Shown piece by piece: positions 228 through 5,175 of a stretch of 6,340 bases of DNA. The DNA is from Candidatus Latescibacterota bacterium (GTDB lineage: Bacteria; Latescibacterota; MVCY01). Within the stretch, counting starts at the first letter, position 1. The number at the start of each line of letters is the position of its first letter. The DNA lies in the NCBI GenBank assembly GCA_030669445.1, contig DAOVDP010000074.1, positions 1 through 6,340 on the forward strand, written 5' to 3'. The position numbers and the translations under genes are program-made. A model generated the notes under the pieces. The model saw only the letters and a list, made by a program, of their open reading frames with translations, made no database searches and was not told where the DNA came from.

Positions 228-992
228 TTATACCCCCGTAAGAAGTTTGGAAAGCTTGCCCCTCAGCTCTTCCAGATCGTCGATCTTTTCCAGTCTACCG
301 TCGACAGCCAAGGAGACAGTGCTGGTTTCCTCTGACACTACTACCATCACCGCGTCTGATTCTTCTGAGAGTCCTATGGCTGCGCGATGTCTCATTCCCG
401 TAGAGGGATTGATAGCGGGATTTTCTGAGATGGGCAACAGGCATTTGGCGGCAGCTATCATTCCTTCCTGGATCACAACTGCACCATCGTGGAGGGGAGT
501 CCTGGGGGTGAAAATGGATGCGAGCAGAGCCGATGAGACCCGGGCGTTGATCTTCACCCCCGTCTCAATAATAGCACCTACACCTACCTCTCTTACCAGC
601 ACCATCAGGGCTCCATAATCTTTCTCAGAGAGGATTTTAACCGCATCTACTATCTCGTTTAATATGGGGATTTCCCCTCCCTTGTAGAACAGACGGACGA
701 CCCTGCTTTGGCCAATGTGAATGAGTATGCGTCGCAGTTCTGGTTGAAAGAGAATCACAAAGACGATTACCCACACGGTCTGCACTTGAGCAATCAGCAG
801 CGATAGTCCGCTCATTCTCAGCCAGGGGGCGATGATGGATATAAGAACTATAATGAGCAATCCCACCAGCATAGTGGCACCGCGGGTGCCCTTCATCAGC
901 CTGAATAGCTGATAGAAAATATAGGCAACCACCCCGATGTCCAAGATGTCAACCGCCCTGACGGGCAGGAATCCGATACTAAAAAGATCCAT
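228..992 (-). CDS. cdaA: Membrane diadenylate cyclase CdaA (DacA), c-di-AMP synthase
   Basis: This enzyme condenses two ATP into the second messenger c-di-AMP at the inner face of the cytoplasmic membrane. The 254-residue product is close to the usual CdaA length. Three hydrophobic segments (about 17-33, 39-58 and 65-82) precede the DAC domain. The catalytic signatures are intact: DGA at 169-171 within TPLHDGAVVIQ, and RHR at 201-203 within GMRHRAAIG, followed by VVSEET. The ATG at 990-992 is the only plausible start. The frame upstream reaches a TGA at 1029-1031 with no other usual initiation codon, and no clear Shine-Dalgarno is seen. The start lies inside the 3' end of the folP remnant (14-bp overlap), which suggests that cdaA was once translationally coupled to folP. 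No intrinsic terminator follows. It is the last certain gene of the tilS-ftsH-folE train. Confidence 0.96.
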   Translation of the reverse strand: MDLFSIGFLPVRAVDILDIGVVAYIFYQLFRLMKGTRGATMLVGLLIIVLISIIAPWLRMSGLSLLIAQVQTVWVIVFVILFQPELRRILIHIGQSRVVRLFYKGGEIPILNEIVDAVKILSEKDYGALMVLVREVGVGAIIETGVKINARVSSALLASIFTPRTPLHDGAVVIQEGMIAAAKCLLPISENPAINPSTGMRHRAAIGLSEESDAVMVVVSEETSTVSLAVDGRLEKIDDLEELRGKLSKLLTGV

Positions 993-1107
993 TTGGCTTA
1001 AGTGTGTCTGCCATTCGAGCCGCCCTGGTCATCTACTCTGCATCGTGGACCCGAACGATATTAGCTCCGGTTACAATCCCTATGGCGACTGCCGCCGCTG
1101 TGGTTTT
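979..1107 (-). pseudogene. folP: Remnant of folP (dihydropteroate synthase), C-terminal end only
   Basis: Read on the minus strand from 1107, the frame encodes TTAAAVAIG, then GANIVRVHDAE, a TAG at 1033-1035, then MTRAARMADTLK and a final TAG at 979-981. GA-IVRVHD followed by a helix with ARM-D is the C-terminal signature of dihydropteroate synthase, where a Glu/Lys-Met pair normally stands at the internal stop. About 42 codons remain of a gene that usually has 270-290. An upstream TAG at 1108-1110 closes the frame, and only 20 bp separate the fragment from the folE stop, so the N-terminal barrel, including the pterin and pABA sites, is gone. The original end still overlaps cdaA by 14 bp, which argues that this is a deletion scar in place, not an insertion. 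The former enzyme joined pABA to hydroxymethyl-dihydropterin diphosphate in folate synthesis. Confidence 0.85.
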
Positions 1108-1127
1108 CTAAAACTGGGAAAGGTGAA

Positions 1128-1691
1128 TTATCTTTGGTGATTTCTGAGCATCGAGAAGGCCTCCATTCTGGTTGCCTCCTGTCGCATAATCCCTCGCATA
1201 GCCGAGGTTAGGGTAAGCGAACCCGGTTTTTTAACTCCGCGCATTGTCATACACATATGCTCAGCCTCTATGACTACCAGAACTCCCTTTGGCTGGAGTA
1301 ATTCCCGCAGATAGTCGGCGATTTCGGTGGTCATCCGTTCTTGGAGTTGAGGTCGTTTGGCGAAGGCCTCTACGATCCTCACCAGACTGCTGAATCCGGT
1401 AATGCGGTTGTTATCAGGAATATAAGAGATGTGTACCCTTCCAGAGAAAGGCAGCAGGTGATGCTCACACATAGAGTAGAAAGGGACATCCTTTACCATA
1501 ATCATCTCATCCTGATTCTCTGCAGTGTAAGTTTTTACCTTCCGTTGGGGTGGTTGGGAAAGCCCCTCGAAGATTTCCTCACACATATCCGCCACCCGAC
1601 GGGGAGTGTCTCTTAGCCCCTCCCGATTAGGATCTTCCCCGATGCCTTCCAGTACCATCTTAATTCCCAGTTCAATCTTCTTCTTGTCCAT
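1128..1691 (-). CDS. folE: GTP cyclohydrolase I (type IA)
   Basis: This cytoplasmic zinc enzyme converts GTP to 7,8-dihydroneopterin triphosphate, the first step of tetrahydrofolate synthesis and an entry point to queuosine precursors. The 187-residue length is normal. The zinc ligands are all visible: Cys75 and His78 in SMCEHHLLPF, and Cys147 in EHMCMTMRG. His77, His145, Arg105 and Arg151 match known active-site positions. The usual GLSK-x-x-R motif reads GFSSLVR at 99-105, so the Lys that contacts the triphosphate in the E. coli enzyme is Ser102. The ATG at 1689-1691 lies inside the end of ftsH (20-bp overlap), with only weak Shine-Dalgarno-like sequence (AGAAGG about 11 nt upstream). Expression probably relies on coupling to ftsH. 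The next gene, folP, survives only as a scar. Confidence 0.96.
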   Translation of the reverse strand: MDKKKIELGIKMVLEGIGEDPNREGLRDTPRRVADMCEEIFEGLSQPPQRKVKTYTAENQDEMIMVKDVPFYSMCEHHLLPFSGRVHISYIPDNNRITGFSSLVRIVEAFAKRPQLQERMTTEIADYLRELLQPKGVLVVIEAEHMCMTMRGVKKPGSLTLTSAMRGIMRQEATRMEAFSMLRNHQR

Positions 1692-3627
1692 TTTGTGCCT
1701 GACCTTCTCTTTTTGTGGGTGAAGTTCTCTTCGCTTTGGCAGGCTTCCTTTTTGGGGTTGGGTTTCTTAATTTCTTTCCAGCTAATAGCTTATCGATTTG
1801 GAAGCCGTCTAAGACCTCATATTCCAATAATGCCTCGGCCAGGACGTGGAGTTTGTCCATATTGTGCTGTAGCAGCTCAGTTGCTCGCTTTTCTGCGTCT
1901 TCTACAAACTTGCGTACTTCCTGGTCGATAACCACCGCTGTCTGTTCGCTGTAGTCTCTATGTCTGGCGATCTCCCGGCCCAAGAATATCTCTTCTTCCT
2001 TCTTGCCGAAGGTGATGGGTCCCAGCTTATCGCTCATTCCCCATTCGCAGACCATCTTTCGTGCCAGTTGGGTTGCCTGTTCGATGTCGTTACCCGCACC
2101 GGTGGTAAGTTCATCAAAGATCAATTCCTCGGCAGCTCTTCCCCCCAGAAGATGGGTGAGCACCCCCAAGCAGTAAGTTTTAGAGTGAGTATGTTTTTCG
2201 TCCAAAGGCAGATAGTAGGTGAGTCCCAGTGCCCTGCCTCTGGGGATGATGGTCACCTTGTGGACGGGGTCTGATTCGGGGACAAGTTTTGACATCAGGG
2301 CGTGACCCACCTCGTGATAAGCCAAGTGTTTTTTCTCGTCTTCGGATATGAACAGGCTTTTTCTCTCTGCCCCCATCATCACCTTGTCTTTTGCTTCTTC
2401 TAAATCGGCCATAGTCACCTTTTTATGGCCTCGGCGGGAGGCCAAGAGGGCGGCCTCATTGACGATATTGGCCAAGTCTGCCCCTGTCAGTCCGGGGGTT
2501 CCCTTGGCGATCACATTTAGCCGCACATCCTTAGCCAGGGGGATATTTGGGGTGTGGACTTTAAGGATTTCTTCTCTGCCCCTGAGGTCGGGGCGGTCTA
2601 AGATAACCTGACGGTCGAATCTGCCGGGACGCAGCAGAGCCGGGTCCAGCACATCCGGGCGGTTAGTGGCTGCCAGAATGATCACCCCTTCGTTGGACTC
2701 AAATCCATCCATCTCCACTAAGAGCTGATTTAAGGTCTGTTCTCTTTCGTCGTGGCCGCCGCCGATGCCTGCCCCTCGGTATCTGCCCACGGCATCGATT
2801 TCATCGATGAATATGATGCAGGGTGCATTGCTCTTGCCTTGAATAAACAGGTCTCTTACCCTGGAAGCGCCCACTCCTACAAACATTTCCACAAAATCGG
2901 AGCCGCTTATGCTCAGGAAGGGAACATGGGCCTCACCAGCCACTGCCCGGGCCAGAAGCGTTTTACCTATCCCCGGCGGTCCCAACAGCAAAACCCCCTT
3001 GGGGATTTTGCCCCCCAGTTTCTGGAATTTGCTAGGATCTTTAAGGAATTCAATTACCTCTGATAACTCCTCCTTGGCCTCGTCCACCCCAGCTACATCA
3101 TTAAAAGTGACCTTCGGCCGGTCTTGGCTGAGTACCTTGGCCTTGCTTTTCCCAAAGGAGAATACTCCCTTGGGCCCGGCCTGCATCTGCCGAATCAAGA
3201 GAAGCCAGATGCCGAAGAAAAGGATAAAGGGCAGCCAGCCTATCAAAAAGCCCGTCCATCCTGTTCTCTTTTTGAACTTGAACTCGACCCCGTATTTCTC
3301 CCACTCTTTTTTGATCTCTGTATCTACAGAGCCAAGATTTACCACAATTCTGCTTTCATCGACCAAGACACCGTGAAAATCGGCGTCGGTGATGATCGCC
3401 TCCTTAATCTGCCTATCTTTTAACAACTGGAGGTATTCGGTGTAAGTGATCTCTGTCGCCTTAGCAGAGAGGTTGCCCAGATAGCGGGCAATCATAAGGG
3501 AGATAAGGAGCAGGAAGAGCCAAATGAGGAGAGTTCTCAGCTTTTTGCCTCCCGCTTTCTGCGTTGGTAGTCTGGGAGGAATGGATTTCTGCCTTCTCTT
3601 TCCCCCATTGTCACTTCTGGTTGCCAT
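1672..3627 (-). CDS. ftsH: ATP-dependent zinc metalloprotease FtsH
   Basis: FtsH is a membrane-anchored hexameric AAA+ protease that unfolds and degrades misassembled membrane proteins and some short-lived cytosolic regulators. The 651 residues contain, in order: a basic N-terminal tail (1-30), TM1 (about 31-48), an extracytoplasmic FtsH_ext domain, TM2 (about 125-146), and the AAA module. The AAA module has Walker A GPPGIGKT at 216-223, a pore loop around MFVGVG at 248-253, Walker B IIFIDE at 271-276, and second-region-of-homology arginines 333 and 336. The M41 protease domain carries HEVGH at 438-442 and a third zinc ligand, Asp514, in TTGAGND. A Lys/Arg-rich tail of about 35 residues ends the protein. 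Walker A has Ile where Thr is usual, and the zinc motif has Val where Ala is usual. Both changes leave the essential residues intact. The ATG at 3625-3627 has a good Shine-Dalgarno, AAGGTG at 3635-3640, spaced by 7 nt. Confidence 0.98.
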
Positions 3628-3680
3628 CTTTTATCACCTTGTTAGCGAAGTTTGTCTCGGCTGTCTGGAACGCAACTATT

Positions 3681-3782
3681 CAGCCACTAAGGCACAAAGA
3701 CACAAAGGAAATATGTGAGTTTTAGAGCGTTTTCAGAGAGAGTTTGTTATTTAATCTTGGTGTCTTAGCATCTTTGTGGCTG
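3681..3782. repeat. Inverted repeat of the 'CAGCCAC...AAGACAC-AAG' type between tilS and ftsH
   Basis: Two 28-bp arms face each other. The plus-strand arm at 3681-3708 begins CAGCCACTAAGG. The minus-strand arm at 3782-3755 begins CAGCCACAAAGA. Compared base by base they agree at 21 of 28 positions, including CAGCCAC at the outer end and AAGACAC further in. A 46-bp AT-rich centre separates them. This family of short repeats recurs in intergenic DNA of many environmental bacteria. Here it fills most of the 123-bp tilS-ftsH gap, and its right arm encodes the last codons and stop of tilS. In the operon mRNA it could form a long imperfect hairpin. No T-tract follows, so I do not call it a terminator. 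Confidence 0.75.
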
Positions 3783-5175
3783 AGCTGTCACTTTGGAACT
3801 GTACTCTCAATATCCGTTGGGTTCTGGGGGTGAGCTTACAGGGGGCATTAATCTCTATTCCTACTACCCACACGACCTTCTCCTGATCAGTCAGAATAGG
3901 GACCTCATCTCGCAAGATCCTGGGCATCTTGCGGTCAATAAGCAGATCTTTCACCTTTTTGTGGCCTTTAATGCCCAGAGGTTGGAAGCTATCTCCCGGA
4001 CGGCGGCTGCGGACCTGAAGCTCGCCGCAGATCGTGTCCAGGTCGAGAAAGGCGGTTTGAGTTTGAGACCCCACCTGGGGGAATTTTTCTCTGAACTGCT
4101 CTGCTGTAAGCACTTGAGTGGAGATCTGGGCGTTTAACTCTGGAATCTTTGTCTGTGCTGGAATCCCCACTTTTTTTTGAAAGGGAGGGACTTTGCCCCT
4201 TTTCATAATCAGTAAATTGCCGCATCGTTGTGCCCTAAGCTCAGAGGCAATTTGAATCCACCCAGACTCCGAGCCGGCCAGTTGGACAAGCTGTTCTACT
4301 TGACCGAATTCAGGATAACCTTCCTTTCCCAGCAGTTGTTGAAGGATATTCCTGAGCACCCTACGTCTCAGACATATATGATAATCTGAAAGCCTGTTAA
4401 TATCAAGTATTATTTTTCTGTTAGTTTTCTGCTTAACACTTAAAGCGTGAACTTGGGAAGTTTGCTCTTCCAAGAAATAATCTTCATCTCGGAGTATCTC
4501 AGCGGTTCGAGCCAACGTGGTGACGATATCTGGATTGTAGTTTTTTCTAAGCAGAGGCAGAAGCTGGTGTCTGATTCTATTGCGGGTATAAGAGAGGTCG
4601 GCATTTGAGGAGTCGCATCGAAAGCTCAGGCCGCGTTGAGTCAAGTATTCTTCTATCTGTTTGCGGGATGTCCCCAGAAGTGGCCTGACGAAAAGCCCAT
4701 CCCGTACCGAGGGAATACCTAACAGCCCTCTTCTGCCTGCCCCTCGAAGTAAGCGAAAGAGGACAGTTTCAGCCTGGTCGTCTAAATTGTGAGCAGTGGC
4801 AATCTTGGTTGCTCCTACTCCTTTAGCAACCTCCTGTAAGAACAGGTATCTGACCTCTCTGGCTCCTTCTTCCTGGGAAAGTCCCCGTTTGCGGATAAAC
4901 TCTGGCACATCGCGTCCCTCTACAGTGGCGGCAAGGCCTAACCTCGAGGCTAACTGGCGCACAAATTCGGCATCTGCATCTGACTGAGTCCCCCGGAGCC
5001 GGTGGTTTAAGTGGGCCACATGAAGTTCTATCCCTAATTGGTCTTTAAGTTGAAGCAGCACATCCAGCAGGGCCACAGAGTCCGGTCCGCCAGAGACCGC
5101 TACTACCGCCTTGTCTCCAGTTATGAACATCTTTTGCTGGCAGATGAAATGTAAGACCTCATCGACAAAGTTCAT
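3751..5175 (-). CDS. tilS: tRNA(Ile)-lysidine synthase TilS
   Basis: TilS uses ATP and lysine to convert C34 of the CAU anticodon of tRNA-Ile2 to lysidine, so that the tRNA reads AUA and is charged with isoleucine instead of methionine. The 474-residue product has the full-length bacterial architecture. The N-terminal PP-loop ATPase carries SGGPDS at 28-33, AHLNHRLRG at 54-62, AHNLDDQAET at 128-137 and RNRIRH at 198-203. A middle helical domain follows, then the C-terminal tRNA-binding domain with RSRRPGDSFQPLG at 389-401 and a KVKDLLID motif. The ATG at 5173-5175 has a modest AGGG a few bases upstream. The usual family end lies near VQFQSD; the final ten residues (SATKMLRHQD) and the stop come from the adjacent repeat. 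A terminator-like hairpin ends about 12-20 nt before the start codon. Confidence 0.97.
   Translation of the reverse strand: MNFVDEVLHFICQQKMFITGDKAVVAVSGGPDSVALLDVLLQLKDQLGIELHVAHLNHRLRGTQSDADAEFVRQLASRLGLAATVEGRDVPEFIRKRGLSQEEGAREVRYLFLQEVAKGVGATKIATAHNLDDQAETVLFRLLRGAGRRGLLGIPSVRDGLFVRPLLGTSRKQIEEYLTQRGLSFRCDSSNADLSYTRNRIRHQLLPLLRKNYNPDIVTTLARTAEILRDEDYFLEEQTSQVHALSVKQKTNRKIILDINRLSDYHICLRRRVLRNILQQLLGKEGYPEFGQVEQLVQLAGSESGWIQIASELRAQRCGNLLIMKRGKVPPFQKKVGIPAQTKIPELNAQISTQVLTAEQFREKFPQVGSQTQTAFLDLDTICGELQVRSRRPGDSFQPLGIKGHKKVKDLLIDRKMPRILRDEVPILTDQEKVVWVVGIEINAPCKLTPRTQRILRVQFQSDSSATKMLRHQD

Follow-up and report, generated by a model that had tools for sequence, protein, structure and literature searches.

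A 3' remnant of folP, which encodes one of the central enzymes in the synthesis of folate (vitamin B9), lies between intact folE and cdaA genes in the stretch of Candidatus Latescibacterota DNA analysed here (the window, 6,340 nucleotides). Very probably the remnant was left by a single deletion in an ancestor, the pterin genes of the pathway have been kept, and the lineage now obtains its dihydropteroate from another source. The loss of the ancestral folP copy has positive evidence, whereas a further copy may exist elsewhere. The window lies in contig 143 of a draft assembly (here G000; 1.29 Mb in 208 contigs, 61.85% complete). Among the titles and opening lines of abstracts listed by literature searches there is no report of a folP loss like this one.

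The remnant occupies 982..1107 on the minus strand and is the 3' end, 35-40 codons long, of a dihydropteroate synthase (DHPS) gene. Read directly from 1107 to 982, its frame is K-TTAAAVAIGIVTGANIVRVHDAE-stop-MTRAARMADTLKPNGSF-stop. The internal stop is the TAG at 1033-1035, another TAG stands at 1108-1110, and the ATG of cdaA (992-990) falls within the frame. The 20 bases (1108..1127, minus strand) between the remnant and the folE stop codon (TAA 1128-1130) form the 5' side of the deletion and are common to G000 and two other genomes of the genus, G002 and G003. The remnant frame scores 149 against P0002, an intact FolP representing a metagenomic cluster of 15 sequences, and 118 against the FolP of a relative (G005), aligning to residues 364-403 and 364-398 of these proteins. 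Chance similarity is ruled out by the scores of the other five frames of 979-1127 against the same two proteins (19-27; 22-26 against P0002), by the maxima after shuffling (43 in 2000 nucleotide shuffles, 54 in 2000 residue shuffles) and by the rest of the window, where the best of 1740 segments of 42 codons scores 43. The remnant was also found when the whole assembly was searched with the DHPS profile TIGR01496, without the locus being supplied (E 8.6e-4); the match covers model positions 222-257 of 258, with two TAGs inside, and its 18.7 bits against a curated cut-off of 162.6 are what is expected of a fragment. The same profile detects the junction in G003 (E 6.9e-5) and G002 (E 4.3e-4).

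Frame reading, profile and shuffles confirm the DHPS C-terminal signature with an internal TAG that the original prediction had placed on the minus strand, and direct reading bears out the 20 bp that it had counted to the folE stop. Its frame of about 42 codons stands, the alignable part being 35-40 codons. Loss of most of folP also stands, although the extent is not the 85% or so first given but 88-91% (363 of 413 or 398 residues). The remnant shares with FolP enzymes (TIGR01496, PF00809) the C-terminal codons that include GANIVRVHD and RMAD, and it sits at the position of folP in relatives, but it is without some 363 codons. With profile positions 1-221 gone from the space after folE, the remnant lacks the complete pterin-binding barrel (about 258 positions) and cannot be an enzyme. 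Its profile match is below the cut-off, and TAGs and the lack of a usual start upstream of the core leave no ORF with a start codon.

Intact genes stand at this place in relatives. In G005, of the same order, a complete folP (L035:692-1888; 341 bits with TIGR01496) lies between folE and cdaA and encodes 398 residues as read here (380 in the public annotation, P0001). Three further genomes of the phylum (G007, G011 and G015) have an intact folP between the same genes, with the ORFs in the order tilS-ftsH-folE-folP-cdaA, the tilS-like ORF being recognised by eye. In G009 and G013 folE adjoins folP, and cdaA was not found beside them. The proposed ancestral order tilS-ftsH-folE-folP-cdaA is thus supported by the intact folP of G005 and of the three genomes, the gene having been sought, and found, between folE and cdaA in all four. 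In the window all the neighbours are on the minus strand: cdaA, for diadenylate cyclase, at 228..992 (TIGR00159, 211.8 bits, cut-off 188.8); folE, for GTP cyclohydrolase I, intact at 1128..1691 (TIGR00063, 227.7 bits, cut-off 181.6); ftsH at 1672..3627, an ORF named by eye that has tblastn matches in relatives and overlaps the folE start; and, as upstream neighbour, an ORF at 3751..5175 which we take to be tilS from a P-loop motif noticed by eye.

The persistence of the 3' end can be understood from the way in which folP and cdaA seem to have been joined. P0002 is 68% identical to the G005 FolP and matches the remnant of one sister species at 34 of 40 residues. Its tail past the DHPS domain reads KPNGAFQDRIPASQGG; the remnant frame of G002 ends with KPNGSFQYRIPAHRGS and then a stop, and the stretch of it past the cdaA ATG resembles the P0002 tail. 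Given this likeness between P0002 and the open frame of G002, the folP/cdaA overlap is likely to predate the deletion, the overlap in P0002 being read from the protein tail alone. If the 3' end of folP did overlap the start of cdaA, a deletion that kept cdaA functional would have had to spare the last piece of folP. The earlier suggestion that this end persists because cdaA starts inside folP is supported by the same likeness.

About 140 N-terminal residues of both the G005 FolP and P0002 have no Pfam match. A DHPS fused to a flavin-dependent dihydropteroate reductase is mentioned in a 2007 comparative survey (PMC1971073). Dihydrofolate reductase (DHFR, PF00186) was not found in any of the 10 genomes of the phylum searched, so its absence is not peculiar to the genus. 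The loss of folP may have removed a putative reductase as well.

The junction is present in three of the five genomes of the genus (G000, G002 and G003), and all three that carry the locus have the same breakpoints; the remaining two, 57% and 67% complete, have neither the junction stretch nor folE. Over its 126 bases the remnant is 95% identical to that of the window in G003 and 93% in G002, and the alignment of the three contains no indels. Of the three, only the window has the TAG at 1033-1035, and that at 1108-1110 is common to the window and G003. G002 has neither: its frame has no stop within the 42 codons and is also open for 41 codons before them. Since three species carry an identical junction between folE and cdaA, one inherited deletion in their common ancestor is likely, in which the first 363 or so codons of folP would have been lost once. 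A draft assembly in 208 contigs might be suspected of having collapsed a complete folP here, by an artefact of assembly or binning. This is extremely improbable, however, as three separate genomes have the same junction with species-specific substitutions and no indel, and the assembly collapse that the original prediction had named as its possible undoing is rejected on that ground. Its interpretation of 979..1107 as a deletion scar is upheld by synteny and by the junction in three genomes: relatives have an intact gene at this place and the sister species have identical breakpoints.

The lack of indels in three species and the open frame of G002 might instead mean that the remnant has been kept as a short functional element, either as a cdaA leader or because it is translated into a peptide. 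Pairwise dN/dS in the remnant is 1.08 (G000-G003), 0.34 and 0.16. The last, that of the G003-G002 pair, is below neutral (P 0.012), with six synonymous and three non-synonymous changes, fewer of the latter than expected under neutrality, and some leftover constraint is conceivable. Against a function stand the G000-G003 value and the internal TAG of the G000 frame, and the 12 of 115 sites that vary in the remnant do not differ significantly from the 81 of 487 fourfold sites that vary in ftsH, folE and cdaA (Fisher P 0.11). None of the three species has an in-frame ATG, GTG or TTG upstream of the remnant core, and nothing in the window but the tRNA matches Rfam. In a consensus scan of 900-1250, with 0.4 sites of each kind expected, the one site resembling a promoter was in cdaA; two resembling terminators overlapped each other on the other strand, at 1080-1103. 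A promoter or known RNA element in the remnant was rejected on the basis of the scan and of Rfam. Retention as a functional element is very unlikely. The remnant is treated here as a scar kept by the start of cdaA, with a small chance of a role as leader; having no such start codon in any species and stops in two, it is now probably untranslated.

Several other features of the window vary within the genus. The ftsH genes of G003 and G002 have a TAG at what is the seventh-last codon of the window ftsH (window 1672-1700), and the window FtsH is longer, running into folE, because the other two stop earlier at this TAG. The tilS-ftsH spacer and the tilS 3' end (3628-3790) contain a repeat-like stretch that G003 and G002 do not have, gaps taking up 79 of the 123 columns of the spacer alignment and 46 of the tilS columns. 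In the window genome this stretch appears to have altered the C-terminus of tilS. Downstream of cdaA, positions 85-185 resemble a short dispersed element. Over positions 1-227, G003 is nearly the same as the window, with 6 differences in 226, whereas G002, with 99 in 215, does not align. No inverted repeats were found at 60-230 or 3620-3830 at the settings used.

FolE, FolB and FolK make the pterin half of folate, and FolC acts after DHPS. The search that had been proposed for the remaining genes of the pathway found folB and folK, adjacent to each other, in G000, G002 and G003 (three of the five genus genomes). folB is complete in all three. So is folK in G000 and G003, but in G002 it reaches the contig end at codon 171; a second folB-folK pair occurs in G003, and the folK of this pair is cut by a contig end. 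The G000 FolK scores over the TIGR01498 cut-off, and what we take to be the FolK motifs are intact on reading. folC was over its cut-off in G001, where it is complete, and in G002 and G003, where it is cut by contig ends; the profile search did not find it in the window genome or G004, both of which are incomplete.

In the three species folE, folB and folK are under purifying selection. Within the genus, dN/dS is 0.06-0.10 for folE, 0.14-0.15 for folB and 0.27-0.42 for folK, beside 0.14-0.15 for cdaA and 0.07-0.09 for ftsH as comparison genes. folE, folB and the core of folK (codons 1-130) are below neutral in all three pairs (P at most 4e-8 for folB and at most 0.005 for the folK core), and the folK tail is below neutral in two of the three (P 0.2 in the third). 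Of all the intact genes in the comparison, dN/dS is highest in folK, and early relaxation is possible. The dS of the folB contigs is 0.40, against 0.13-0.23 for the folE locus. Thus, the genes acting before the missing step have been kept since the common deletion. The product of FolK is not known to have any use other than as a substrate of DHPS, so a substitute for DHPS is likely, and the step is likely to be met by an unseen or non-homologous source. The lineage would then still make the FolK product and draw its dihydropteroate from something other than the ancestral folP, either a non-homologous enzyme or a folP at another place, missed in all five of the incomplete assemblies.

The search for a second folP that the original prediction had called for was run with TIGR01496 over 21 genomes, five of the genus and 16 from outside it. 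Proteins over the cut-off were present in 13 of the 21 and in none of the five genus genomes, which at 57-90% completeness make absence no proof. Three of the 16 others (G012, G016 and G019) were also under the cut-off, so that failing to find folP is nothing unusual among these genomes; a folE match is present in G012 and G019 and absent in G016. G012, which is of the same phylum and 95% complete, has folE and no folP over the cut-off. Searching 10 genomes with PF00809 gave seven genus proteins (one each in G000, G001 and G004, two each in G002 and G003). A second DHPS among them was rejected: all seven have methyltetrahydrofolate:corrinoid methyltransferase as their best model, whose cut-off four of them exceed and three do not reach.

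The incompleteness of all five assemblies, and the retention of folB, folK and folC, which implies a DHPS, make it quite possible, if somewhat short of an even chance, that a second full folP freed the ancestral copy and that folate synthesis is ordinary. Such a gene might have been acquired horizontally and lie on a poorly binned island or plasmid, mobile folP genes (sul) being known. However, the search detects remnants of 35 codons, and it found no fragment of another folP in any of the five genomes. If misses were independent, the chance of missing folP would be 0.001 in all five and 0.008 in the three with the scar; correlated misses would raise these figures, and a poorly binned element would break the independence. 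Among the best 120 proteins P0002 is closest to the remnant, although a foreign folP need not be close, and among the best 120 matches listed for P0002 none besides P0002 itself is more than 69% identical to it. The other form of substitute, a dihydropteroate synthase unrelated to FolP with which the genus would make its folate and which would have taken over from the ancestral enzyme ahead of the folP deletion, is put forward tentatively and is on balance doubtful.

The original prediction had suggested that the organism salvages folate and uses FolE elsewhere. On such an account folate or dihydropteroate is imported by a lineage that has lost DHPS, with folE, folB and folK in slow decay or serving another pterin. 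The ancestral folP is indeed gone, purifying selection is weaker on FolK than on any other intact gene compared, and four of the five genus genomes have an ECF S-component with a weak folate-family score (19-25 bits, cut-off 60). The FolT cut-off was reached in none of eight genomes, but also in none of 14 control genomes, so this carries little weight. No pabB (TIGR00553) was found in the genus, the matches in G000 and G003 being rejected as TrpE; but it was likewise not found in G005 and G009, which both have folP, and only four of 14 control genomes reach its cut-off. Against decay stand the below-neutral values of folE, of folB and of the folK core in every pair. Salvage is unlikely, and the suggestion is not supported, folB and folK being kept and constrained.

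A dihydropteroate source other than the ancestral folP would serve a lineage in which folate is probably in high demand, since the genus has proteins like methyltetrahydrofolate:corrinoid methyltransferases. Some of their genes adjoin ORFs that by eye resemble acetyl-CoA-pathway genes, and one in G002 is on the same contig as formyltetrahydrofolate synthetase, which G002 alone of the five genus genomes has. With folP deleted at its home locus and folE, folB and folK constrained, this Latescibacterota genus is a place to seek a different DHPS. The alternative prospect from the same lineage is dihydropteroate shared between species.

In the 2007 survey, FolK and FolP together are the signature of folate synthesis, and folate scavengers are without both (PMC1971073). 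The scavengers resemble the present genus in having no folP, and some of them also keep folC; here, however, folK is present in G000, G002 and G003 together with folE and folB, and the retention of these three genes under constraint is an unusual pattern for a folate scavenger. The same survey describes genomes in which, as here, one signature gene is missing, and ascribes the lone absence of folK or folP usually to gene calling or incomplete genomes (PMC1971073). Unlike those lone absences, the junction between folE and cdaA provides positive evidence, in three species, that the ancestral copy was lost.
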